This document shows, one piece after another, positions 51,220-63,474 of a stretch of 64,000 nt of DNA. The stretch is from Streptomyces roseirectus (GTDB lineage Bacteria; Actinomycetota; Actinomycetes; Streptomycetales; Streptomycetaceae), in the NCBI RefSeq assembly GCF_014489635.1, contig NZ_CP060828.1, positions 8,606,001-8,670,000 on the forward strand, given 5' to 3'. How positions within the stretch are numbered: the first letter of the stretch is position 1; every line of letters begins with the position of its first letter. The translations under genes and the position numbers were made by a program. The notes under the pieces were generated by a model that was not told the origin of the DNA, searched no databases, and saw only the letters and a list, made by a program, of their open reading frames with translations.

Positions 51220-51696
51220 ATGACGGCCCAGCACCTCACCGACGCCGAACTCGCCGCGCAGCCCGTCGCCCACTGGACGGGCCTCGCCTACGAGGCGACC
51301 CTCGCCCACATCCGCGCCCACATGGCCGAACTCGGCACTTCCCAGCCGCAGTTCTGGATCCTGCGCAACCTCTCCCGCCACGACCTCTCGCCCGACGGCC
51401 ACGGCAGGACCATCCCGCAGCTCCGCGAGGCCATGGCCACCTACCTCCGCCCCGAGGACGACCTGGCCGCCGAGGCTGACCTCATGCTGGCCAAGGGCTG
51501 GCTCACTCGCGACGGCGAGGCGCGCCTGTGGATCACCGGGGCGGGCGAGGAGGCCCGCACGGAGATCCGGCGGCACGCCCCCGCCGTCCGCGCGCGGATG
51601 CACGAGGGCGTCGACGACGCCGACTACGTCACCACCGTCAAGGTGCTGCGGCGGATGATCCGCAACGCCGGCGACCCGGCCGGGGTCCTCGGCTGA
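51220..51696 (+). CDS. MarR-like winged-helix protein
   Basis: A 158-residue protein. A helical first part (WTGLAYEATLAHIRAHMAEL) precedes FWILRNLSRHDLSPDGHG and TIPQLREAMATYLRPEDDLA, then the wing LTRDGEARLWITGAGEEART, and a final dimerisation helix. It is MarR-like in order of elements but with a weak recognition helix, so the assignment is moderate. The ATG at 51220 is behind AGGGGGAACCGCC. Repeats upstream suggest autoregulation. It is convergent with the ABC ATPase gene of the metallophore-like operon, 9 bases apart. Confidence 0.72.
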   Translation: MTAQHLTDAELAAQPVAHWTGLAYEATLAHIRAHMAELGTSQPQFWILRNLSRHDLSPDGHGRTIPQLREAMATYLRPEDDLAAEADLMLAKGWLTRDGEARLWITGAGEEARTEIRRHAPAVRARMHEGVDDADYVTTVKVLRRMIRNAGDPAGVLG

Positions 51697-51705
51697 GAGC
51701 CCGTG

Positions 51706-53208
51706 TCACGCGCCCTGCAGACGCGCCGTCGTCCGGGTCAGCGCGGCCGTGAAGGGATGCGCCGGGGCGGTCAGGATCTGCCGCGCCGGGCCCGTCTCGA
51801 CGAGTTCCCCCGCGTCGAGGACCGCGATGCGGTGCGCGAGGGCGGCGGTGTCGAGGTCGTGGGTGATGAGGACGAGGGTGAGGTCGGGGCGGGTGCGCAG
51901 GAGGCCGGTGAGGGTGTCGAGGATGGTGCGGCGGGTCACCGGGTCGAGGGCCGAGGTGATCTCGTCGCACAGCAGGACACGCGGGTGGGCCAGCAACGCG
52001 CGGGCCAGCGCGGCGCGTTGGAGCTCACCGCCGGACAGGCCCGTCGGCTGACGGTCCCACAGGGACTCGGTGAGACCGAGGCCCGCCAGCGTCTCCCGCG
52101 CCTCCTCCCGCGCCGCCTCCGCGCCCGCGCCGCGCAGCCGGACCGCCGTGCGGGACACCTGGTCCAGGACCGTGCGGTGCTCGTCGAACGCGGCCCGCGC
52201 GTCCTGGAACACGTACTGCACGGCCGCGAGTTGGGCGCGCGAACGGTCACGGAGACTGCGGGGCAACCGGGCGCCGTCGAGCGTGACCTCACCGTCGTAC
52301 GCGCGGTGCAGGCCCGCCAGCGCGCGGGCCAGCGTCGTCTTCCCGCTGCCCGAACGGCCCACGACGGCAAGGCACTCGCCCTGGTGGAGGGTGAGCCGGG
52401 GGACACGCACGACGTCCGCCCGGCGGTGACGTGCCGTCAAGTCCCGGATCTCCACGACGGGTTCGCCCGGTGCCGTCTCCGGAGAGGTGAACGGCCGTGC
52501 CGCGTCGAAGAGTTCACGCGTCCAGGCGTGCCCCGGGGTCAGCCGCAGGCGGTCTGCGGGCCCCGACTCGACGACCCGCCCGGCGCGCATGACGTGCACC
52601 TCGTCCGCGAGGGCGCCGACGACGTCGAGGTCATGACTGAGGAGGACGACCGCGATGCCGCGCGCGGCGAGCGCGGCCAGCTCCTCCACCACCCGGCTCT
52701 TGGTCAACGCGTCCTGACCGGTGGTGGGTTCGTCGGCCACGACCACCCGCGCCCCGAGGAGCAGGGCCTGCGCGAGGGTGACGCGCTGCTGCTGGCCCCC
52801 CGACAACTGGTGCGGGAAACGCCGCAACAGAGGCTCGGCGTCCGGGAGTTGCGCGTCCCGCAGCGCGTCCAGGACCCGTCCCCGGCGCTCCTCGCGCGGC
52901 CGGGTGCGCGCGATGTCCCGCAGCAGCGCCGAGACCCGGCGGGCCGGGTTCAGGGCGGCCGCCGGATGCTGGGGAACGTACCCGGCGCGGTCGGCGGCCC
53001 GCACCTCGCCGGTCACCGCGGCGCCGGGCGGGAACTCGCCCAGCAGCGCCAGTCCCGTCGTCGTCTTGCCGCTGCCCGACGCCCCGACCAGCGCGGTCAC
53101 CCTGCCCGCGACGACCCGCAGGGACACGCCGTCGACGATCGCCCGGCCGCCGATCTCCACGCGCAGATCACGGAGTTCGGCCACGACTTCTTCGGCCCCG
53201 AGGCTCAT
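51706..53208 (-). CDS. Double ABC ATPase of an Opp/nickel-type importer
   Basis: A 500-residue protein with two complete ABC ATPases fused: domain 1 with Walker A LVGASGSGKTTTGLALLG, signature LSGGQQQRVTLAQAL and Walker B VVVADEPTTGQD; domain 2 with Walker A VVGRSGSGKTTLARALAG, signature LSGGELQRAALARAL and Walker B VLLCDEITSALDP. In Opp/Dpp/Nik importers these are usually two proteins (DppD, DppF), so this is a fusion. It would power the permeases encoded just upstream. The ATG overlaps the permease stop (ATGA). It is the last gene of the ten-gene operon. Confidence 0.9.
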   Translation of the reverse strand: MSLGAEEVVAELRDLRVEIGGRAIVDGVSLRVVAGRVTALVGASGSGKTTTGLALLGEFPPGAAVTGEVRAADRAGYVPQHPAAALNPARRVSALLRDIARTRPREERRGRVLDALRDAQLPDAEPLLRRFPHQLSGGQQQRVTLAQALLLGARVVVADEPTTGQDALTKSRVVEELAALAARGIAVVLLSHDLDVVGALADEVHVMRAGRVVESGPADRLRLTPGHAWTRELFDAARPFTSPETAPGEPVVEIRDLTARHRRADVVRVPRLTLHQGECLAVVGRSGSGKTTLARALAGLHRAYDGEVTLDGARLPRSLRDRSRAQLAAVQYVFQDARAAFDEHRTVLDQVSRTAVRLRGAGAEAAREEARETLAGLGLTESLWDRQPTGLSGGELQRAALARALLAHPRVLLCDEITSALDPVTRRTILDTLTGLLRTRPDLTLVLITHDLDTAALAHRIAVLDAGELVETGPARQILTAPAHPFTAALTRTTARLQGA

Positions 53209-54020
53209 GTACGCGCCTTCCCCTTCTCGCGGCCCGGCGCCGCCTTGCCGCGGTCGAGCGCCGCGTCGAACAGCAGATTCGTCCCCGTCGTCAGCGCGAC
53301 GATCAGCAGCGCGGGCACCACCACCGCCCAGGGCTGCACGAACAGCCCCGTCCGGTTGCGGTCCACCATCACCGCCCAGTCCGCCGCGTCCGGCGCGACC
53401 CCGACGCCCAGGAAGGCGGCCGTCGCCACCAGATAGAGGACGCCGGTGAGGCGCGTCCCCGCGTCGGCGGCCAGCGTCCGTACGCCCGAGCGGGCGACAT
53501 GGCCGACGGCGATCCGCCACCAGCTCTCGCCCTGCATGCGCAGCGCCTCGACGGCCGGCCGCGACGCGGTCTCCCCGGCCGCCGCCCGCACGATCCGCGC
53601 CGCGTCCGGCACGTTCACCGCCGCCACCAGCAGCGCCAGCCCCACCGCGCCCGGCGAGAACACGGCCGCCACCAGCAGGATCAGCAACAGCGACGGCACC
53701 GCGAGCAGGACGTCCAGCGGACGCATCAACGCCTCCTCCAGCCACCGCCGGTGCGTCAGCGCGCAGAACAACCCCACCGGCAGCGCCACCAGATACGCCA
53801 GCGCGGTCGCCGCGAGCGCCGTCACCACCACCGGCCGCCCGCCGTACAGGATCTGCCGGACGACGTCCCGGCCGACGAAGTCGGTCCCGAGCCAGTGCCC
53901 GCCGCCGAGCGTGAACGACGTGCCCCGGGGCCCCGGTTCACCCGCGAACAGCGGCCCGAACAGGGCCAGGACCAGCGGCACGGCGACGATGACCGCCCCG
54001 TACACGAAACGACGTCTCAC
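53205..54020 (-). CDS. ABC importer permease (DppC/NikC-like)
   Basis: A 271-residue permease with six membrane helices. The N-terminus RRRFVYGAVIVAVPLVLALF leads to the conserved start of the Opp-type inner domain, HWLGTDFVGRDVVRQILYGG. The coupling motif region is VRAAAGETASRPAVEALRMQ with a following GESWWRIAVGHV. It pairs with the second permease to form the channel. GTG is the start at 54020, overlapping the neighbour's stop (GTGA). Confidence 0.9.
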   Translation of the reverse strand: MRRRFVYGAVIVAVPLVLALFGPLFAGEPGPRGTSFTLGGGHWLGTDFVGRDVVRQILYGGRPVVVTALAATALAYLVALPVGLFCALTHRRWLEEALMRPLDVLLAVPSLLLILLVAAVFSPGAVGLALLVAAVNVPDAARIVRAAAGETASRPAVEALRMQGESWWRIAVGHVARSGVRTLAADAGTRLTGVLYLVATAAFLGVGVAPDAADWAVMVDRNRTGLFVQPWAVVVPALLIVALTTGTNLLFDAALDRGKAAPGREKGKART

Positions 54021-54979
54021 GCCGCCACCTCCGCCCGCGGCGCGAACCGGTGCGCCACCAGATCCGCCCCCAGATTCAGTACGACCGTCAGCACCCCGAA
54101 CACCACGGCGAGGCCCTGCACCACCGGCACGTCCCGCTCGGACACCGCGTTGAGCAGCACCGTGCCGAGGCCGGGCACCACGAACAGGGCCTCGACGACG
54201 ATCACCCCGCACAGCAACCAGTCGACCGTGCGCGCCAGTTGCTGCACGGCCGGCGCGAGCGCGTTGGGCAGCGCGTGCAGATACCGCACCCGCGCCTCCG
54301 GCACCCCGTACCGCCGGGCCTGCGCCACGTACGGCGAGGCCAGCGCCTCGACCATGCCGGCCCGCACCAGCCGCGACAGCGAGCACACCGGCCGCGCCAG
54401 CAGCACGAGCACCGGCAGCACCAGCACCGCCGGATGCGCGAGGAGATCCGTGCCGTAGCCGACGGCCGTCGGCGGCAGCCAGTCCAGGCGCAGCGCGAAC
54501 ACCGTCACGAGCAGCACCCCGAGCGCGAACTCCGGTACCGCGTACACCCCGAGGGTCACCGAACTCGCCAACCGGTCGAGGAGGCCGCCCTCGTGACGGG
54601 CCATCAGCACCCCGAGCCCGAACCCGGCCGGGATCAGCAGCGCCAGTGTCAGCGCCGCGAGCAGCAGCGTCGGTCCGAACCCCTCGGAGAGGTACGTGGC
54701 GACCGGCCGCCCGGAGACCAGGGACGTGCCCAGGTCCCCGTGCAGCAGCCCGCCCGCCCAGGTCAGCAGCCGCTCCCCGGCCGGCTGGTCGAGGTGCATC
54801 GCCTCCCGGATCGCCGCGATCCGCGCCGGATCGGGCTGATCGCCCGCGAGGGCGACCGCCGCGTCACCCGGCAGCGCCTCGGTGAGCGCGAAGACCAGCA
54901 GCACCACGGCCACGGTCTGCGCGACGCCGAGCAGCAGCCGCCGGACGACGAAGGAACCCAGAAAGGTCACGCGAGCCAC
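54017..54979 (-). CDS. ABC importer permease (DppB/NikB-like)
   Basis: A 320-residue permease: the N-terminal helix VRRLLLGVAQTVAVVLLVFA is followed by the extracellular loop with DQPDPARIAAIREAMHLDQP, as in the DppB family, and the coupling region RAGMVEALASPYVAQARRYG (E-A-x-x-x-x-Y-V-x-x-A-R), which is diagnostic. It forms the heterodimer with the DppC-like permease. GTG is the start at 54979; it lies 13 bases inside the 3' end of the binding protein gene. The gene is part of the metallophore-like operon. Confidence 0.9.
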   Translation of the reverse strand: MARVTFLGSFVVRRLLLGVAQTVAVVLLVFALTEALPGDAAVALAGDQPDPARIAAIREAMHLDQPAGERLLTWAGGLLHGDLGTSLVSGRPVATYLSEGFGPTLLLAALTLALLIPAGFGLGVLMARHEGGLLDRLASSVTLGVYAVPEFALGVLLVTVFALRLDWLPPTAVGYGTDLLAHPAVLVLPVLVLLARPVCSLSRLVRAGMVEALASPYVAQARRYGVPEARVRYLHALPNALAPAVQQLARTVDWLLCGVIVVEALFVVPGLGTVLLNAVSERDVPVVQGLAVVFGVLTVVLNLGADLVAHRFAPRAEVAA

Positions 54980-56526
54980 ACCTTGTCGAACCGCGCCCAG
55001 CCCAGCGTGTTGGCGGGCGCCTTGGTGTCAACACCCTTGACCTGGCGGCCCGTTCCGATGATCCAGTCCGCGAACCCCCACACCAGGAATCCGCCCTCGG
55101 TGTAGAGGCGGCGCTGCATCCGCGCGTACACGGCGGCGCGTTGCGCCGGGTCGGCCGTCGACTGGGCCTGCTGGTACTGGGCGTCGAAGTCCTTGTGCCG
55201 CCAGTGCGTCGCGTTGGTCGTCGAGTCGGTCAGCAGCCGCTGCGAGATGTGCGCCTCGATGGGCATCGCGCCGGAGCGGTAGCAGGCGAGGACACCGGAG
55301 TCGAGGATGTCGCTCCAGTACGAGTCCTTGCTGCCGACGCGCACCTCGACCGTGACCCCGGCCTGCTTCGCCTGGTCGCGGAAGATCCCGGCGGCCTCCG
55401 TGAACCCGGCCGCGACCTCCGACGTGTCCAGCGTGACCTTCAGGTCCGAAGCTCCGGCTGCCTTCAGCAGGGCTCGTGCCTTCGCCAAGTCCTGGGCGCG
55501 CTGCGGGAGATCGGCCGCGTAGTACTCGTACCCCTTGCCGAACAGGTCGTTGCCGACGACGCCCGCGCCCGACAGCGCCCCGTTCACGAGTTCCTGCCGG
55601 TCGGCGATGAGGAAGAACGCCTGCCGCACCCGGGGGTCGTCGAACGGCGGCCGGTCGGTCTTCATCGCGAACGCCTGCATCGCGCTGCCGCGCAGCCGCA
55701 CGATCTCGATCTGCCCGTGCCCCTCGTGCGCGCGGGCCGTCGTCGGGTTCAGCTCGTGCGCGTACTCGATCTGCCCGCCCAGCAGGGCGTTCACGCGCGC
55801 CGACTCCTCGTTCGCGACGACGAACTCCAGCTCGTCCAGGTGCGGGGCGCCCTCCCAGTAGGCGTCGTTGCGCCGGAAGACCGCCGAGCGGCCCGGCGCG
55901 AACGACACGAACCTGAACGGCCCCGACCCGACGGGCCGCTTGTCGAAGTCGGCCGCCTTGTCGGGCACGATGTACGCGCCGAACGCGGCGAGCACGTTGG
56001 GGAATTCGGCGGTCGGCCGCTTCAGCACGAACTCGATCGTCCGGGCGCCCGTCGCGCGGCTCGCGGTGAGGTCGATGGGCTCCAGGGACGCCTTCGCGCG
56101 GAACGCCTTCGCCGGGTCGGCGATGCGGCGGTAGCTGTAGAGGACGTCCTGCGCGGTGACCGGGCGTCCGTCGTGGAACTCGGCCTCGCGCAGCGTGACC
56201 TGCCAGCGGTCGAGGGTCTTGTTCGGTTCCCACTTCGCCGCGAGCCGGGGCTGGGCGGACAGGTCGGCGCCGTAGTCGGCGAGCTTGTCGTACTGCGCCT
56301 TGGCGCGGGCCGCGTCACCGAAGAGGTTCGCGAGGTGCGGGTCGAGGTTCTCGCTCGCCCCGCCGCCCGCGAACGCGGCCCGCAGCCGGCCCCCGCGCTT
56401 GGGTGAACCGCCGCCGCTGCCGGCGGACTTGCCGCCGTCGTCACCGCCGCACCCGGTGAGCGCCAGCGCGCCCAGCGAGGCCGCCCCCGCCGCGAGGAAG
56501 CCTCTGCGGCCCCAGGAGTCACGCAT
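54967..56526 (-). CDS. Opp/nickel-type extracellular substrate-binding lipoprotein
   Basis: A 519-residue family 5 binding protein. The signal SWGRRGFLAAGAASLGALAL ends in lipobox LTGC; the RRGFLA also fits a Tat signal. The mature protein shows LAAKWEPNKTLDRWQVTLRE and FHDGRPVTAQDVLYSYRRIA, the diagnostic part of SBP_bac_5, then FRFVSFAPGRSAVFRRNDAY and DPRVRQAFFLIADRQELVNG. It would capture a peptide-like or metal-chelate ligand. The ATG at 56526 is preferred to a TTG at 56541 because of GGGGA eight bases upstream. It precedes the permeases. Confidence 0.88.
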   Translation of the reverse strand: MRDSWGRRGFLAAGAASLGALALTGCGGDDGGKSAGSGGGSPKRGGRLRAAFAGGGASENLDPHLANLFGDAARAKAQYDKLADYGADLSAQPRLAAKWEPNKTLDRWQVTLREAEFHDGRPVTAQDVLYSYRRIADPAKAFRAKASLEPIDLTASRATGARTIEFVLKRPTAEFPNVLAAFGAYIVPDKAADFDKRPVGSGPFRFVSFAPGRSAVFRRNDAYWEGAPHLDELEFVVANEESARVNALLGGQIEYAHELNPTTARAHEGHGQIEIVRLRGSAMQAFAMKTDRPPFDDPRVRQAFFLIADRQELVNGALSGAGVVGNDLFGKGYEYYAADLPQRAQDLAKARALLKAAGASDLKVTLDTSEVAAGFTEAAGIFRDQAKQAGVTVEVRVGSKDSYWSDILDSGVLACYRSGAMPIEAHISQRLLTDSTTNATHWRHKDFDAQYQQAQSTADPAQRAAVYARMQRRLYTEGGFLVWGFADWIIGTGRQVKGVDTKAPANTLGWARFDKVWLA

Positions 56527-56554
56527 CTGTTCAGTCCCCAACTGTGTTCAGTCC

Positions 56555-57331
56555 TCAGGAAGTAGTGAGTCGAGCGATCACGTGCAGCCGGTCGGCGTCC
56601 GCCGAGGAACCCGGCAACAGGCCCTCCCGCCAAGGAGGTTCGGTCCGGGGGCCGGGCCCGTCGTGCAGTTCGAGCACGTCGAAGCCGTACGCGGCCAGCC
56701 GGTGGCGCAGCTCCAGCGGGAACAGCAGCCGCCACGCGGACCGCTGCTCGACCGGCCCGTCGTCGGTTTCCCAGACCCTGCTGCGGCGCAGGAGCTGAGC
56801 CGTGCGGTCGACGGTGAGCGTGGTCGTCGACCGGTACGAAACGCCCTGCCAGACGAAGGAGTTGACGCCCGGCGTGTCCAACAGGTCGGTCCGGCCCAGG
56901 AAGTACGCGCCGTTGCGCATCTCCGCGACGAACAGCCCGCCGGGGGCGAGCGCCCGCCGCACCGCGCGCAGGCAGCCGTCGAGCTGGTCGTCGGTGTGGC
57001 AGTACAGCAGCGCGCTGTCCAGGCACAGCACGGCGTCGAACTCGCCCGCCCCCAGGTCGAATCCGTGCAGGTCGGCCTCGACGTACGCGGGCCCGGGGTG
57101 GACGGTCCTGGCGTGCGCCAGCATCGCCTCGGACAGGTCGGCGCCCGTGACCGTGCGGCCCGCGCCGTGCAGGTACGCCGCGTCGCGCCCGGTGCCGCAG
57201 CCGAGGTCCAGGACGCACGGGCCGGCGCCGTGCCGGCGCAGGCAGTCCTCGGCCCAGCGCCCGGCCAGCCGCTCGGCGTCGGGGAAGCGGGCCTCGTACA
57301 GCGCGGGGTTGTCCGTGAGGAAGTTGCTCAC
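56555..57331 (-). CDS. SAM-dependent class I methyltransferase
   Basis: A 258-residue enzyme. Motif I is PCVLDLGCGTGRDAAYLHGA; the acidic TVTGADLSEAMLAHARTVHP follows, then FDAVLCLDSALLYCHTDDQL and LAPGGLFVAEMRNGAYFLG. The C-terminal part is typical of small-molecule methyltransferases. It may methylate a nitrogen, oxygen or carboxylate of the operon product. The start is GTG 57331, four bases after the MFS stop. No methyl acceptor can be deduced. Confidence 0.86.
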   Translation of the reverse strand: MSNFLTDNPALYEARFPDAERLAGRWAEDCLRRHGAGPCVLDLGCGTGRDAAYLHGAGRTVTGADLSEAMLAHARTVHPGPAYVEADLHGFDLGAGEFDAVLCLDSALLYCHTDDQLDGCLRAVRRALAPGGLFVAEMRNGAYFLGRTDLLDTPGVNSFVWQGVSYRSTTTLTVDRTAQLLRRSRVWETDDGPVEQRSAWRLLFPLELRHRLAAYGFDVLELHDGPGPRTEPPWREGLLPGSSADADRLHVIARLTTS

Positions 57332-57335
57332 CGGA

Positions 57336-58565
57336 TCACACCCCCGCCGGGGCGGCGGCCCGCGACTCGGACGGCAGCGAGCCCAGCCGGTACATCCACG
57401 CCACCCCCGCCGCCGACAGCAGTCCGAACACCGCGCAGCACACCCACGGCAGCCAGGCGGCGTCGCCCCGCTCCCCGGTGTCCATCGCCCACCCGACGAC
57501 CGCGTTGCCCACGGCCGCCGCGATGCCCGACACGACGTAGAAGATCCCGAAGTACGTGCCGGTCAGCTCGGGCCTGCCGAACCGGGGGATCAGCTCCATC
57601 ACGAACGGCTGCGCGACCATCACACCGAGGTACAGCAGCAGCGTCCCGACGAGCACCGGCAGCACCCGCAGGGCCACCGGACCGTCGGAGACCCCCGCGA
57701 CGACGGCCGGCGGCAGGAACCCGACGGCCATCACCCCGAGCCCCACCGCGATCCAACGCGCCCTGTTCCCGCGCTCCTTGAGCATGGCGGTGATCCGCAG
57801 TTGCAGCGCGAGGTTGGCGAGGGTGCCGACGAGGAACACGATGCCCGCGGCCCCGTCCCAGCCGGTCGCCCGGCGTGCCCCGTCCGGCAGCAGCAGGTAG
57901 AGCTGGTTCTCCAGGGTGAACATGCCGACCATCGCCAACGCGAAGGCCAGGAAGGCCCGTTGGCCCAGCACCTCGCGCCAGTCCCCGAGGACCGTGCCCT
58001 TGCTCGGCGCGACCTCGCGGGCGGGCAGCACCAGCGCCTGCGCGACGGTGAGGGCCGCGAAGATCCCGGCGGCGGTCAGCGCCGACGTCCGGAAGTCCAC
58101 CAGCAGCAGCGCGCTCCCCAGCAGCGGGCCGACCAGCGCGCCGGCCGTCGCGAACACGTTGAACAGCGCGAACGCCTCCGCCTTGCGCTCACCGGACTCC
58201 TGCGAGACGTACGCCCGCACGGCCGGGTTGAACAGCGCGCCCGCGAACCCGCTCAGCACGGACGCGGCCAGCAGCACCGGCAGGCTGTCTCCGAGCGCGA
58301 ACAGCGCGAACCCGACGGTCCGCAGCGCGCACCCGGCGATGATCACCCCGCGCGCCCCGAGCCGGTCGGACGCGGAGCCGCCGATGATGAACAGGCCCTG
58401 CTGGCTGAGGTTGCGCACCCCGAGGACCACCCCGACCACGGCGGCCGACAGCCCCAGGTTCTCCCCGAGGTGCGTCGCGAGATACGGGATCAGCAGGTAG
58501 AAACCGGTGTTGACGCCGAACTGGTTGACCAGCAACAACTGGACGGCGAGCGGGAATCGCCGCAT
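57336..58565 (-). CDS. MFS transporter, probable exporter
   Basis: A 409-residue protein with about 12 membrane helices. The loop 2-3 motif is GGSASDRLGARGVIIAGCAL, an MFS signature (G-x-x-x-D-R-x-G-x-R). The N-terminus begins MRRFPLAVQLLLVNQFGVNT. In metallophore loci, the MFS exports the finished compound (CntE in staphylopine systems); this is the likely role here. The ATG at 58565 begins one base after the stop of the epimerase-like gene (TGAGATG), so it is coupled. The substrate is inferred only from context. Confidence 0.85.
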   Translation of the reverse strand: MRRFPLAVQLLLVNQFGVNTGFYLLIPYLATHLGENLGLSAAVVGVVLGVRNLSQQGLFIIGGSASDRLGARGVIIAGCALRTVGFALFALGDSLPVLLAASVLSGFAGALFNPAVRAYVSQESGERKAEAFALFNVFATAGALVGPLLGSALLLVDFRTSALTAAGIFAALTVAQALVLPAREVAPSKGTVLGDWREVLGQRAFLAFALAMVGMFTLENQLYLLLPDGARRATGWDGAAGIVFLVGTLANLALQLRITAMLKERGNRARWIAVGLGVMAVGFLPPAVVAGVSDGPVALRVLPVLVGTLLLYLGVMVAQPFVMELIPRFGRPELTGTYFGIFYVVSGIAAAVGNAVVGWAMDTGERGDAAWLPWVCCAVFGLLSAAGVAWMYRLGSLPSESRAAAPAGV

Positions 58566-58566
58566 C

Positions 58567-59640
58567 TCACGCCACGTGCGCACGCGCGGCCTCCTCACCG
58601 GAACCGGACGCCGCACCGGAGTCGGCGGGGACAACTCCCAGACCCGGCAGCCCACTTGCCCGCACGACCCCGTCCTCGCCCCCGATACCCCGCCAGGGAT
58701 CGCGAGCCAGCAGCAGATGCCCGTCGAGGTCCACCCACCGCGCCCGGTCCGCGAGATGCACCGCGGGCGCGATCCCGAGCGTGCTCGCCGTGAGGCAGCC
58801 CAGCATCAGCGACGTCCCGCTGCCCTCGATCGACTCCGCGATCCGCAGGGCCGCCCGGACGCCCCCGCACTTGGCGAGCTTGACGTTCACCCCCTGCACC
58901 CGCCCGGCCAGCCGCCGCACGTCCTCGATCCGCACGGCGTCCTCGTCGGCGATCACCGGCACCGGCGAGGCGGCCGCGAGAGCGCCCAGCCCCTCCGGGT
59001 CACCGGGCGCCACCGGCTGCTCGACCGCCTCGACGCCGAGCGCCGCGAACCGGGGCAGCAGCTCCCGGGCCTCCGCGAGGCTCCACGCCCCGTTCGGGTC
59101 CAGCAGCACCCGCACCCCGGGCGCCGCGTCACGGATCACCCGGACGCGCTCCAGGGCCTCGTCACCGGCCCCGGCCTTCACCTTGAGGACGCCGAACCCG
59201 CGCGCGGCCAGCGTCCGGGCGTCGGCGGCGGCCTTCTCGGGCGGGACGATGCCGATCGTGCGCGCGGTCGAGGCGACCGGCCGCTCGGGCGTGCCGAGCA
59301 GTGCGTGCACGGGCCGGCCGGCCCGTTTGCCGACAAGGTCGAGGAGCGCCGACTCGACGGCCGCGGTGACCGCCGGGGGAGTGTCGTCGCCGGTCAACCC
59401 GGCGTCGTCCAGGGCGGTTTCGGGGTCGGGGTAGCGGGTGAGGTCCACGGCCGACAGGTGCCGGGTCAGGGTCTCGGCGTCGAGGCCGTAGTAGACGCTG
59501 CTGACGGCCTCGCCGTGGCCGCGGACGCCGTCGGCGTCCGCGACGGTCAGCCAGACCGCGTCGCGGGCGGACATGGTGGAGCGGGAGATGCGCAGCGGCT
59601 CGGCGAGGTCGAGGCGTACGGTGCGCAGGGTGGCCTTCAC
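58567..59640 (-). CDS. Dipeptide epimerase-like enolase-superfamily enzyme
   Basis: A 357-residue member of the enolase superfamily. The catalytic Lys pair is in FGVLKVKAGAGDEALERVRV (K-x-K); the metal ligands are in VRVLLDPNGAWSLAEA (Asp), GVEAVEQPVAPGDPEGL (Glu) and VPVIADEDAVRIEDV (Asp), with the second base Lys in VNVKLAKCGGVRAALRIAES. VDLDGHLLL near the end is the D-x-D of dipeptide epimerases. It inverts an alpha carbon of a dipeptide such as L-Ala-Glu. Context suggests a dipeptide of the operon. GTG start (59640) overlaps the PLP enzyme's stop. Confidence 0.88.
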   Translation of the reverse strand: MKATLRTVRLDLAEPLRISRSTMSARDAVWLTVADADGVRGHGEAVSSVYYGLDAETLTRHLSAVDLTRYPDPETALDDAGLTGDDTPPAVTAAVESALLDLVGKRAGRPVHALLGTPERPVASTARTIGIVPPEKAAADARTLAARGFGVLKVKAGAGDEALERVRVIRDAAPGVRVLLDPNGAWSLAEARELLPRFAALGVEAVEQPVAPGDPEGLGALAAASPVPVIADEDAVRIEDVRRLAGRVQGVNVKLAKCGGVRAALRIAESIEGSGTSLMLGCLTASTLGIAPAVHLADRARWVDLDGHLLLARDPWRGIGGEDGVVRASGLPGLGVVPADSGAASGSGEEAARAHVA

Positions 59641-60716
59641 GGCGTCCTTTCAAGAGACTTGAGGGGGTCGGTGACGCGGGTGCAGCGCGCCCAGCCGACG
59701 GCTTCGGCGGCCGACGGATGCGGGATCTCCACCGGGCGGGTCGCGGCCGTGGCGGGCGTGATGCCGTGCGCGGCGGCGAAGTCGTCGTCGAAGACGGTGC
59801 CCAGGTAGCGGTGCGGGCCGTCCGGGAAGACCGTCGCGACGACCGCGCCCGGGTGGACGCGGGCCGCCCAGGCGGCGACCCGCGCGACGGCGCCCGTGCT
59901 CCAGCCGCCGCTGACGAAGCTCTCCCGGGCCAGCCTGCGGCAGCCGTCGACGGCCTCGGCGGGGCCGACCCAGTGGACCTCGTCGAACGCGTCGTAGGCG
60001 ACGTTGCGCGGGTGGATGCTGCTGCCGAGGCCGCGCATGAGCCGGGGCCGCGCGGGCTGGCCGAAGATCGTGGAGCCGGTGGCGTCCACCCCGATCAGCC
60101 GCAGCGCGGGCCAGTGCCGGCGCAGCGGACCGATCACCCCGGCGCTGTGCCCGCCGGTGCCGACGCTGCACACCAGGATGTCGACGTGGTCGAGCTGGAC
60201 GGCGAGTTCGGCGGCGAGCGAGGCGTAACCGGCCGTGTTGTCGGGGTTGTTGTACTGGTCGGGCCAGTAGGCGTCCGGCAGCACCGCCAGCAGCTCGCGC
60301 AGCCGGGCCAGCCGTGCCGCCTGCCAGCCGCCGACGGGCGCCGGACGGTCCACGAGTTCGAGCCGGACCCCGTGCGCGCGCAGCAACTGCCGCATGGACG
60401 GCTCCAGTTCGCTGTCGCCGACGAGCACCACCGGATGCCCGAGCGCCTGCCCGGCGAACGCGAGTCCGACGCCGAGCGTGCCCGACGTGGACTCCACCAC
60501 CGGTGCGCCCGGCCGCAGTTCACCCCGCTCCCGGGCGCCGAGGAGCATCGACACGGCGGCCCGCGCCTTCATCCCGCCCGCCGCGAGCCCTTCCAGCTTC
60601 GCCCAGAAACCGGGGTGCGGTCCGGGCAGCCCCGCCGTGATCCGCACGACGGGCGTACGGCCGAGCAGTTCCAGCAACTCCGGGCGGGCCAGGGCCCGTC
60701 GGGCGGCGGTGGTCAT
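59637..60716 (-). CDS. PLP-dependent cysteine-synthase-like enzyme (SbnA type)
   Basis: A 359-residue fold-type II PLP enzyme. The Schiff-base Lys is in FWAKLEGLAAGGMKARAAVS; the substrate loop is PVVESTSGTLGVGLAFAG; the phosphate-binding loop is VDILVCSVGTGGHSAGVIGP. Its closest known relatives in length and motif order are SbnA-type enzymes, which make N-(1-amino-1-carboxyl-2-ethyl)-glutamate from O-phosphoserine and glutamate. No SbnB dehydrogenase is nearby. The ATG at 60716 overlaps the DUF364 stop (ATGA). It should supply the diaminopropionate-like part of the product; the substrate is inferred. Confidence 0.84.
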   Translation of the reverse strand: MTTAARRALARPELLELLGRTPVVRITAGLPGPHPGFWAKLEGLAAGGMKARAAVSMLLGARERGELRPGAPVVESTSGTLGVGLAFAGQALGHPVVLVGDSELEPSMRQLLRAHGVRLELVDRPAPVGGWQAARLARLRELLAVLPDAYWPDQYNNPDNTAGYASLAAELAVQLDHVDILVCSVGTGGHSAGVIGPLRRHWPALRLIGVDATGSTIFGQPARPRLMRGLGSSIHPRNVAYDAFDEVHWVGPAEAVDGCRRLARESFVSGGWSTGAVARVAAWAARVHPGAVVATVFPDGPHRYLGTVFDDDFAAAHGITPATAATRPVEIPHPSAAEAVGWARCTRVTDPLKSLERTP

Positions 60717-61519
60717 CGCTCGCCCCCCGCCCGGTAGCGGTGCAGCAGGCCCGGTCCGCCGTCCAGCCAGAAGAACGGGTACGGCTCCGCGCACACCGCG
60801 CTCACCCCGTGCCCGAGGAAGTGCGGCAGGATCGCGCTCCCGGTCTGCGCGAACATCACCAGGGGCCGCCCGGCGGCGCGTTCGCGCAGCGCGTCGAACG
60901 TGCCGTTGCCCAGCGTCATCCCGGACACCAGCAGCGCGTCGCAGCCCTCCAGCGCCGCGAGCGCGTCGGTCGCGACCGGCTCGCCCCACTCCGTCGTCCC
61001 GCCCTTGAGATCGCACGCCACATACCGCAGCCCGCGCGAACGCAAGTCCTCCAGCAGGGAGTTGACGACCCCGACGACCAGGACGACGGACCCCTCGGGG
61101 ACGTCGAGCAGGTCGACGACGGCCCGTGCGCGCGCCCGTGACTTCTCCAGCGAGGTCCCGGCGGGCAGGGCGACGGTGTCGCCGCCGTGCGGGACGGTGT
61201 GCATGAGGTACGCGTCCAGGGCCGCGACCCGCACCGGCAGCAGCGGGTGCGTGAGGAGGTGGGCGACGTCGGCGCCGACACAGTCGTCCAGCGCCTCCTC
61301 GGGCAGCGCGCCCGGCTCGACCGCGCAGGAGCCGGTGGCCTCGCCGATGCGCAGGCTCAGCACCTCGTTGCGGTAGCCGGTGCCGCGCCCGTCGTGCCGG
61401 ACGGCCTGCTGGGTGCGGAAGGCGACGGCGACACGGACGTCCGCCGGGTCGGGGCCGATTCCGCCGCGCAGCGCCCGGTCCAGGAGCGCGTCGAACGAGG
61501 TCCGGGTGAGCGCGGTCAC
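60713..61519 (-). CDS. DUF364-like Rossmann-type protein
   Basis: A 268-residue protein. The first half begins FDALLDRALRGGIGPDPADV and has VAVAFRTQQAVRHDGRGTGY. The second half has a Rossmann-like fold: SVVLVVGVVNSLLEDLRSRG, DALLVSGMTLGNGTFDAL (the S-G/T-x-L-x-N-x-T motif typical of DUF364, a family described as putative heavy-metal chelation) and LVMFAQTGSAILPHFLGHGV. It may bind the metal or a metal-bound intermediate, or be an enzyme of the pathway. GTG 61519 overlaps the ATP-grasp stop (GTGA). Confidence 0.8.
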   Translation of the reverse strand: MTALTRTSFDALLDRALRGGIGPDPADVRVAVAFRTQQAVRHDGRGTGYRNEVLSLRIGEATGSCAVEPGALPEEALDDCVGADVAHLLTHPLLPVRVAALDAYLMHTVPHGGDTVALPAGTSLEKSRARARAVVDLLDVPEGSVVLVVGVVNSLLEDLRSRGLRYVACDLKGGTTEWGEPVATDALAALEGCDALLVSGMTLGNGTFDALRERAAGRPLVMFAQTGSAILPHFLGHGVSAVCAEPYPFFWLDGGPGLLHRYRAGGER

Positions 61520-62766
61520 CGGATCACCAGACCGGAGCGCAGCGCGGCCAGGGCCGATTCGACGCGGTCGCGGGCGCCGAGGCCGTCCGCGTCGCCCGCC
61601 ATGACGTGGCCCAGGTACTCGTTGTTGCTGCCCGCCGCCTTCACCTGCCGTCCGGGCTCGGCGAGTTGGACCTCCAGGAGGTCACCGGGGAGCGATGCGC
61701 CGTCCAGCGCTTCGAGGGTGCCCGAGACCTCCGGGACGACGAAGCCGATCGCGGCGCTGGTGAGGCCGGTGTCCTTGCGGGCGAGGTCGGGGGCGGTGCC
61801 GAGGGCGACGTCGACGAACGCGGCGGCGAGGTCGATCCCGGTGACGTGGCGGACCAGTTCGGTGATGCGGTTGCCCGCCGGACGCGGGTTGACCTCGACG
61901 ATGCGCGGGCCGGACGAGGTGAGCTTGACCTCGGTGTGCGCGACGACGCCGGCCACCAGGCCCAGTGCCTTCAGCGCGGCCAGCGCGGTCTGTTCGGCGG
62001 CCTCGGTGTCGGCGGCGCTCAGCGCGGCGGGGAACATGTGGCCCGTCTCGATGAACGCGGGCGCCCCGCCGACGCTCTTGTCGGTCACGCCGATCACCTG
62101 GACCGAGCCCGCGTGCGACACCGTCTCGACGCTCACCTCGGGGCCGTCGAGCAGTTCTTCGAGGAGGACGGCCGGATCGCGGCGCTGGCCACGGGCGTTG
62201 ACCGGGAAGGCGGCCAACGCGCGGAAGGCGTCCGCGAGTTGGGACTCGTCGTCGACGCGGCGGACGAACATGCCGGCGCACAGGTCGACCGGCTTCACGA
62301 CCAGCGGGTAGCCGATCTCCCGGGCGGCGCGGGCGAGTTCGGCCCACTCGGCGTGGACGGCGAAACGCGGTCCTGGGACCCCGGCGTCGGTGAGGACCCG
62401 GCGGGTGGCGTCCTTGCGGCACGCGTTCTCCACGGCTTCGGCGCCGGGCCCCGGCAGACCCAGGTGGGCGGCGATCCGGGCGACCGCCGGGAGGTAGTAG
62501 TCGCAGGACGTGATGACGCCGTCGAAGCCGAACACGCCGTGCAGGCGGGCGACTTCGGGCAGCAGGGCGTCCGTGTCGTTGGTGTCGGCGGTGATGACGT
62601 GGCGGGCGCCGAGCAGCGGGTGTGCCGTGCCCTCGGGCGCCGAGCGCAGGTAGTGGTGCAGATCGCGGGTCAGGAACGTGAACGTGTGCCCGCTCTCCCG
62701 GATCGCCCGCGGCAGCAGTCTGCTCATCGAGCCGACCCAGCTCTCTACCACCAACAGATGAGCCAC
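61516..62766 (-). CDS. ATP-grasp ligase (BacD/L-amino-acid ligase type)
   Basis: A 416-residue ATP-grasp enzyme. N-terminal pre-ATP-grasp part: LLVVESWVGSMSRLLPRAIR and FGFDGVITSCDYYLPAVARI. Core: YPLVVKPVDLCAGMFVRRV (ATP lid), VLLEELLDGPEVSVETVSHA, VVAHTEVKLTSSGPRIVEVN, then PRPAGNRITELVRHVTGIDL. The R-I-V-E-V-N-P-R-P-A-G end is diagnostic for dipeptide/amino-acid ligases. It forms an amide with ATP; here presumably between the SbnA-type product and another amino acid. GTG 62766 follows AAGGGGAGTC. It is the first gene of the operon, about 95 bases from the Zur-like box. Confidence 0.88.
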   Translation of the reverse strand: MAHLLVVESWVGSMSRLLPRAIRESGHTFTFLTRDLHHYLRSAPEGTAHPLLGARHVITADTNDTDALLPEVARLHGVFGFDGVITSCDYYLPAVARIAAHLGLPGPGAEAVENACRKDATRRVLTDAGVPGPRFAVHAEWAELARAAREIGYPLVVKPVDLCAGMFVRRVDDESQLADAFRALAAFPVNARGQRRDPAVLLEELLDGPEVSVETVSHAGSVQVIGVTDKSVGGAPAFIETGHMFPAALSAADTEAAEQTALAALKALGLVAGVVAHTEVKLTSSGPRIVEVNPRPAGNRITELVRHVTGIDLAAAFVDVALGTAPDLARKDTGLTSAAIGFVVPEVSGTLEALDGASLPGDLLEVQLAEPGRQVKAAGSNNEYLGHVMAGDADGLGARDRVESALAALRSGLVIR

Positions 62767-62859: not shown

Positions 62860-62874
62860 CGATAATCATTTTCA
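62860..62874 (-). promoter_or_regulatory. Zur-like box at the head of the ten-gene operon
   Basis: On the minus strand TGAAAATGATTATCG matches the actinobacterial Zur consensus TGAAAATGATTTTCA at 13 of 15 positions. It is in an A+T-rich patch, 94 bases before the ATP-grasp start and 19 bases before the divergent hydrolase remnant. Confidence 0.78.
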
Positions 62875-62892
62875 TTGTCACCCAGTTCTCCG

Positions 62893-63474
62893 ATGACCGT
62901 CCGATGGCCGTCCGAAGAGACTCCCTTGACCTTCCTGCCGCGCCGCGTGACCGTCCCCGACGGCATCCGTGCCCACCCCCACGACGGCGCCATCGACGGA
63001 CTGCGCCTGCCCGCGCCCTTCGACGGGTCCGCCTCGCGGAACTACGAGGCCGCCAACCGGATCGTGAAGTGCGCCGACGGACCCGGCCCGGCCCCCGCCC
63101 GGATCCTCGCCGACCGGTGCCGCCTGCACCGCCTCGCCCCCGCGCCGGTGCTCACCGGCATGGAGGCCGCCGCCTGCGCGTACTGGACCTACCGCCCCGC
63201 CCACCGGACCGCACTCGGCAACCCCGGCGCCCCGCCCCTGATCCTCGTCTCCTCCGTGCACGACCCCGTCACCCCGGCCGAGGGCGCCCGCGCGCTGCGC
63301 CGGCTGCTGCCCGGGTCCCGGATCGTCACCCTCGACGACGACTACTCCCACGGCGTGTTCGCGAGCCGGGGCAACGGATGCGTCGACACGACGGCCGCCG
63401 CCTACCTCGTGGACGGCACCGTGCCGACGGCCGACGTCCGGTGCGCGGGCCCCGGACTGCCCGCCGTGAACTGA
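62893..63474 (+). pseudogene. 5'-truncated TAP/SlpE-type alpha/beta hydrolase
   Basis: The frame encodes only the C-terminal part of a secreted tripeptidyl-aminopeptidase-like hydrolase: a Cys-containing NRIVKCADGPG, PPLILVSSVHDPVTPAEGAR (the catalytic Asp), and SHGVFASRGNGCVDTTAAAYLVDGTVPT in which the His and the last Cys are typical of the TAP C-terminal domain. The nucleophile Ser elbow and the signal peptide, expected some 250-300 codons earlier, are missing. The cut lies at the Zur-like box of the divergent operon. The ATG at 62893 may be fortuitous. It is unlikely to be active. Confidence 0.75.

Follow-up and report, generated by a model that had tools for sequence, protein, structure and literature searches.

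To our knowledge, few zincophores have been described. In the cnt systems, biosynthesis, a major facilitator superfamily (MFS) transporter and a Nik/Opp-type importer are combined in one unit, and the biosynthesis of ethylenediaminedisuccinate ([S,S]-EDDS) includes an SbnA-type step. The [S,S]-EDDS pathway is controlled by Zur and is described in the cited passages as unlike both nonribosomal peptide synthetase (NRPS) and NRPS-independent siderophore (NIS) pathways (PMC4993170), and the coelibactin cluster of Streptomyces coelicolor is introduced in its source as a metallophore cluster under Zur control (PMC6103462). For the DUF364 family, the cited part of a structure paper from 2010 reports that no function could be assigned (PMC2954201). 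Here we analyse a 64-kb window, that is, the whole stretch of 64,000 nucleotides at positions 8,606,001 to 8,670,000 of Streptomyces roseirectus contig NZ_CP060828.1. It contains ten adjoining genes (g1 to g10) that probably form an NRPS-free zincophore operon, in which zinc-loaded Zur would repress a single unit that makes, exports and re-imports a chelator.

A predicted ten-gene operon behind a Zur-type box

The ten genes lie on the minus strand and span exactly 51706-62766 of the window (C1:8657706-8668766 in the 9.95-Mb single-contig genome), an arrangement from which transcription as one operon is predicted. From g1 to g10, the junctions are -4, -4, -4, +1, +4, +28, -4, -4 and -4 bases, six of the nine being 4-base overlaps, and a convergent open reading frame (ORF; 51220-51696) lies 9 bases from the operon end. 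The proteins were assigned to families with Pfam and NCBIfam profiles and by comparison with solved structures. The initial annotation had described ten genes in one direction with overlaps or gaps of at most 28 bases, had named their families, had placed a Zur-like box in front of them and had noted the lack of nicotianamine synthase, opine dehydrogenase and NRPS genes; each of these statements holds, the last for a Pfam scan of the ten proteins, which likewise returned no IucA/IucC domain and no peptidase family. The features are as follows; the higher coordinate of each gene is its start.

62860-62874, minus strand: candidate Zur-type box TGAAAATGATTATCG, 93 bases from g1, within a longer conserved block tGacAATGAAAAtGATTAtCGaTA
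61516..62766, minus strand: g1, ATP-grasp ligase of the L-amino-acid-ligase type, 416 aa (Pfam ATP-grasp_4 and LAL_C2)
60713..61519, minus strand: g2, DUF364 protein, 268 aa (PF04016, 36.5 bits; cut-off 23)
59637..60716, minus strand: g3, SbnA-like pyridoxal 5′-phosphate (PLP) enzyme, 359 aa (Pfam PALP; NCBIfam SbnA, TIGR03945, ranked first)
58567..59640, minus strand: g4, dipeptide-epimerase-like enolase, 357 aa (Pfam MR_MLE N and C)
57336..58565, minus strand: g5, MFS transporter, proposed exporter, 409 aa (Pfam MFS_1)
56555..57331, minus strand: g6, class I S-adenosylmethionine methyltransferase, 258 aa (Pfam Methyltransf_25)
54967..56526, minus strand: g7, SBP_bac_5 binding protein, 519 aa (Pfam SBP_bac_5, NCBIfam)
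54017..54970, minus strand: g8, Nik/Opp-type permease, 317 aa (Pfam BPD_transp_1, NCBIfam)
53205..54020, minus strand: g9, Nik/Opp-type permease, 271 aa (Pfam BPD_transp_1, NCBIfam)
51706..53208, minus strand: g10, double ATP-binding cassette (ABC) ATPase, 500 aa (Pfam ABC_tran, in two stretches)

Conservation of the ten-gene set

The g2 protein was scanned against one genome per species (84,980 species), which yielded 289 relatives; the best 80 of these, together with one plasmid locus (L001), make up an 81-locus set. All ten genes are present on one strand and in the same order in 75 of the 81 loci, and the recurrence across genomes that the initial annotation had named as a check is thus borne out. 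Five of the six exceptions are short or contig-end loci (L049, L060, L078, L083 and L099). The sixth is L057, from Streptomyces sp. NRRL WC-3605, where g1-g4 are kept and g5-g10 were not found in the 10 kb downstream. Stops occur within the aligned stretches of g4 in L057, L070 and L082, of g5 and g8 in L071, and of g9 in L061.

Proteins of S. niveiscabiei and S. acidiscabies are among the closest database relatives of g2, and S. curacoi and S. spinoverrucosus also carry orthologues. A DUF364 relative was found in 122 of 295 sampled Streptomyces genomes; by a hand count, about 68 of these carry close orthologues (at least 69% identity) and about 55 a second clade (40-45%), two genomes having both. 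Across the class, such a relative is present in 30 of 394 genomes and 8 of 137 genera. The ten-gene set occurs in the same order in two other families (L185 and L186, 49-71% identity), with a 3-mismatch Zur-type box 53 bases before g1 in L186, and on plasmid pRZP2 of Rhodococcus sp. ZPP (L242, 46-60% identity). In the pRZP2 record, nine of the ten names agree, and the second gene, recorded as 'hypothetical', shares 57% identity with g2 and scores 1 bit below the DUF364 cut-off.

The Zur-type box

Zur-type sites were sought with the pattern TGAAAATCATTTTCA and counted by mismatches. The operon box is the only site with at most 3 mismatches in the window. In 81 g1 upstream regions, the window's own included, agreement with the window reaches 96% of alignment cells in the box versus 45% elsewhere upstream. 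Every one of 78 g1 upstream regions (again including the window's) has a best match of 11-14 of the 15 bases; in L033 and L050, this match lies at -255 and -165, respectively, and is somewhat different in sequence. The box differs by one mismatch from tGaNNatSatNNtCa, the motif given in the cited part of a chromatin immunoprecipitation (ChIP) study of S. coelicolor Zur (PMC5472717).

In the whole 9.95-Mb genome, there are seven distinct sites with at most 2 mismatches, and at up to 3 mismatches 15 forward matches were found versus 4 for the reversed control pattern. One of the seven is the operon box. Of the others, 6460154 adjoins a ZnuA gene (Pfam), 9185386, 2806281 and 8926847 stand at SBP_bac_5 genes, as does 1693398 with another ORF between (Pfam), and 8958694 is at a gene for an AMP-binding enzyme (Pfam) next to an ORF that by eye looks like an NRPS. 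Among the 3-mismatch sites are those at the L33/L28 ribosomal genes (4212633) and at a second ZnuA that neighbours a Fur-type gene (8894170 and 8894721). Two Fur-type genes, that beside the second ZnuA and one at 8926847, encode proteins that match 3mwm best, which we take to be S. coelicolor Zur, and then Zur/FurB 2o03, named a probable zinc uptake regulator.

Control of the operon by DmdR1 (iron) or Nur (nickel) was considered and rejected on the basis of motif searches. No DmdR1 site was found with at most 5 mismatches in the window or at most 6 in the 300 bases upstream of the operon, nor a Nur site with at most 2 mismatches in the same 300 bases. Also upstream of the operon is a plus-strand ORF (62875-63474) that by eye resembles the C-terminal part of an alpha/beta hydrolase and is possibly a remnant.

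A second clade with exchanged importers

Second-clade clusters occur in Streptomyces and other actinobacterial families, with DUF364 relatives named in Amycolatopsis, Lentzea and Saccharopolyspora. Twenty-six loci were picked non-randomly from two genome surveys, 16 from one and 10 from the other (L148-L163 and L229-L238). In all 26, the DUF364 gene has an SbnA-like PLP gene on the same strand and no more than two genes away; the identity of its product to g3, measured for 16 of the loci, is 26-32%. The importer is of the FecCD type in 21 of the 26 and of the Nik/Opp type (47-53% identical to g7-g10) in three; none was seen in L236 and L238. Genes for a GHMP kinase (often), a methyltransferase, a PhyH protein and an MFS transporter are variably present.

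A Zur-type box with at most 3 mismatches is present in 22 of the 26 loci, and in L148, L154 and L156, a site with 4 mismatches stands directly in front of the first importer gene. Among the first 16 loci, 14 distinct sites compare with 0 for the reversed pattern and 0.1 for Markov sequence, and no DmdR1 site with at most 5 mismatches was found in these 16.

Families of the ten proteins

Motifs are conserved in g1 and g3 (85 sequences each) and in g4 (80 sequences). The best solved relative of g1 is the L-amino acid ligase BL00235 (3vot, 115 bits). The g2 protein scores above the gathering score of PF04016 and has the two-domain fold; fold searches returned DUF364 structures first, followed by enolase-superfamily proteins and PLP-fold or Rossmann-like proteins. 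Neither nicotianamine synthase nor opine dehydrogenase was among the matches listed in these searches, which excludes nothing as to a hidden identity of g2. In g3, GGMKARAA contains a lysine that is aligned with the K in the MKDRPA motif of SbnA. The top NCBIfam models for g4 are the DgcA racemase (224.5 bits, cut-off 400) and the L-Ala-D/L-Glu epimerase (133.3 bits, cut-off 343), both cut-offs being missed, and its best solved relative is 3iji. It carries the KxK motif, three acidic metal ligands, second lysine and DxD motif of dipeptide epimerases, which are conserved in at least 97% of 80 sequences in an alignment that omitted three with stops.

For the importer, the leading NCBIfam models are Opp5A/NikA for g7, the nickel permeases Opp2B and Opp2C for g8 and g9, and NikD for g10, whose first half matches NikD/CntD best and whose second half matches CntF/NikE. 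The g7 protein starts with a twin-arginine and a lipobox-like motif, read by eye. Its closest paralogue in the genome (34% identity) is divergent from the second Fur-family gene, with a Zur-type box between them (the whole at C1:8926311-8928470, L008 and L250), and is probably part of another metal-linked importer.

Links among g1, g3 and g5 outside the clusters

The view that g1 and g3 belong to one pathway is supported by a domain fusion and by their repeated occurrence side by side. In Kitasatospora sp. NBC_00039, a plasmid-borne fusion protein of 748 residues (L247:6858-9104) joins a PALP domain (43% identical to g3) to ATP-grasp and LAL_C2 domains (38% identical to g1); its neighbours are genes for a GHMP kinase, a Lyase_1 protein and NRPSs. 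A row in Azospirillum ramasamyi contains genes for a kinase, an SbnA-like enzyme, an ATP-grasp protein, an EamA transporter and an argininosuccinate lyase, and in S. clavifer (L240), GHMP-kinase-like, SbnA-like, ATP-grasp, MFS and methyltransferase genes occur together.

Relatives of g3 outside the DUF364 clusters (55-63% identity) are directly adjoined by a g5-like MFS gene (41-48%) in all 19 loci examined, which comprise 16 genome matches, the genome's own C1:869742 among them, and three plasmids. This two-gene cassette lacks the other eight genes (L184 at C1:869742-870758, L187-L201, L101, L102, L104, L245 and L246) and also occurs on actinobacterial plasmids. Several such or similar loci are near genes for cation diffusion facilitator (CDF) transporters, ArsR, CopC, CbtA/CbtB or four-helix copper-binding proteins; others, for example L246, are not near metal-resistance-type genes. 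In L244, no MFS gene follows the PLP gene in an incomplete gene table, and no search was aimed at one.

Proposed pathway and alternatives

The initial annotation interpreted the locus as a likely zincophore operon. Of the explanations compared here, this one has the best support, because the gene order is kept in 75 of 81 loci, the Zur-type box is conserved, boxes across the genome stand mostly at metal-uptake-type genes, and other clusters pair SbnA-like and DUF364 genes with other importers behind the same box. The scheme that follows is read from gene content. Zinc-loaded Zur would repress the ten-gene transcription unit, and in zinc shortage, g1-g4 and g6 would build a small amino-acid-derived chelator with no NRPS. 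The g3 enzyme would couple an amino acid, through its amine, to a serine-derived carbon unit, with O-phosphoserine as one possible donor, and so produce a diamino-polycarboxylate; g1 would form an amide bond to the g3 product or another amino acid, g4 would invert one centre in the dipeptide-like compound, g6 would methylate it, and g2 might carry out a further step in an adenosyl-type pocket. The product would be exported by g5, and its metal complex would be imported by g7-g10.

Several observations weigh against the zincophore interpretation. The g3 protein falls below the SbnA equivalog cut-off of TIGR03945 (245 versus 349.95 bits), and g7-g10 are all under the NCBIfam Nik and Cnt cut-offs (CntF 268/385, CntD 263/380, CntA 57/800 and CntC 93/440 bits), so the transported substrates are not assignable from profiles. 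The operon contains no SbnB; a full SbnB equivalog is encoded about 0.76 Mb away (C1:9430424-9431386, L248; 386.5 bits, above the cut-off), which may act in trans and make diaminopropionate available to the operon enzymes. Exact matches to the ChIP motif stand at two other places in the genome and none at the operon box. There are 22 distinct genome sites with at most 3 mismatches, 15 of them with exactly 3, of which only part were examined, and the 3-mismatch sites L005, L107 and L111 have no zinc gene evident by eye. Finally, no box was found with at most 4 mismatches in L185, whose only site (5 mismatches) is 65 bases before g1, or upstream of g1 on pRZP2, nor with at most 3 mismatches in second-clade L229 or S. 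clavifer L240.

The operon might instead make a metallophore for nickel or cobalt, or for more than one metal, and Zur would then act only as a general switch for metal starvation. Chelators of the staphylopine type carry several metals, and the importer is of the Nik/Opp type, as the leading models show; however, every importer protein misses the Nik cut-offs, the Nur search found no site, and clusters with the same kind of box also combine the SbnA-like/DUF364 pair with FecCD importers, so we consider this alternative unlikely. Another idea is that the product is a secreted bioactive dipeptide, an antimetabolite made in response to zinc starvation, with the ABC system as a peptide importer. 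ATP-grasp ligases and SbnA-like enzymes also make dipeptide antibiotics such as dapdiamide, and the PALP/ATP-grasp fusion of L247 adjoins NRPS genes. Nevertheless, the enzymes are accompanied by a dedicated importer in 75 of 81 loci, and the exchange of importer type while pairing and box stay constant follows the logic of scavenging; an antimetabolite is, in our judgement, very unlikely. We give scant credence to a system that takes up peptides, such as cell-wall dipeptides, and catabolises or remodels them, the epimerase and the ATP-grasp protein serving in salvage. The likeness of g4 to DgcA and L-Ala-D/L-Glu epimerases and the resemblance of the importer to peptide and glutathione systems would suit such a role, whereas the ten proteins include no peptidase family by Pfam, and a ligase, an SbnA-like synthase, an MFS transporter and a Zur-type box are all present.

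Beyond the zincophore interpretation of the operon itself, we tentatively suggest that the SbnA-like and DUF364 proteins could form the biosynthetic core of a hitherto unrecognised class of actinobacterial zincophores made without an NRPS and controlled by Zur, a proposal that we hold at somewhat less than even confidence. In such a class, tailoring genes (ATP-grasp, epimerase, GHMP kinase, methyltransferase and PhyH) and importers (Nik/Opp or FecCD) would be swappable, DUF364 would be a chelator-building enzyme, and the SbnA-like/MFS cassette, often on plasmids and in several cases next to metal-resistance genes, would serve detoxification by producing a chelator and expelling it. If true, zincophores of a new class would be widespread, given the 122 of 295 Streptomyces genomes with a DUF364 relative, the DUF364 family would gain a directly testable role, and attention would be drawn to small chelators of biological origin. 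Since two unrelated types of importer accompany the core pair, it also lends itself well to studying how metallophore pathways and uptake systems recombine.

Comparison with known systems

No description of the ten-gene operon was found among the titles and abstract openings listed in searches of Creative Commons-licensed PubMed Central text, which is weak evidence of absence. Like the cnt systems for staphylopine and pseudopaline, the operon joins biosynthesis, an MFS transporter and a Nik/Opp-type importer, and the whole g10 protein scores 268 bits against CntF and 263 against CntD, under the cut-offs; unlike them, it encodes no nicotianamine synthase or opine dehydrogenase family in the Pfam scan. 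Among solved structures, g3 is closest to SbnA from the staphyloferrin B pathway (5d87, 148 bits), the lysine motif of which is retained, although SbnA has GGSMKDRPA and ESTSGNLG where g3 has GGMKARAA and ESTSGTLG. In contrast to the DUF364 structures of Dhaf4260 (3l5o) and PH1506 (3npg), which have no assigned function, g2 goes together with an SbnA-like partner protein and a Zur-type box. Coelibactin is an NRPS product, whereas the operon has no NRPS; a Zur-type site does stand at the AMP-binding/NRPS region of this genome (8958694). The closest known systems also include the aminopolycarboxylic acid pathways for [S,S]-EDDS (aes genes, Amycolatopsis japonicum) and EDHA. As a difference, the Pfam scan of the ten proteins gave no Lyase_1-type enzyme, although the more distant SbnA-like/ATP-grasp clusters L243 and L247 carry a lyase. 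As a similarity to the Zur-controlled EDDS pathway, which is unlike NRPS and NIS pathways, the operon has a Zur-type box, and its ten proteins contain neither NRPS nor IucA/IucC domains. We class it as a putative variant of a kind already known from EDDS, the Zur-controlled NRPS-free metallophores.

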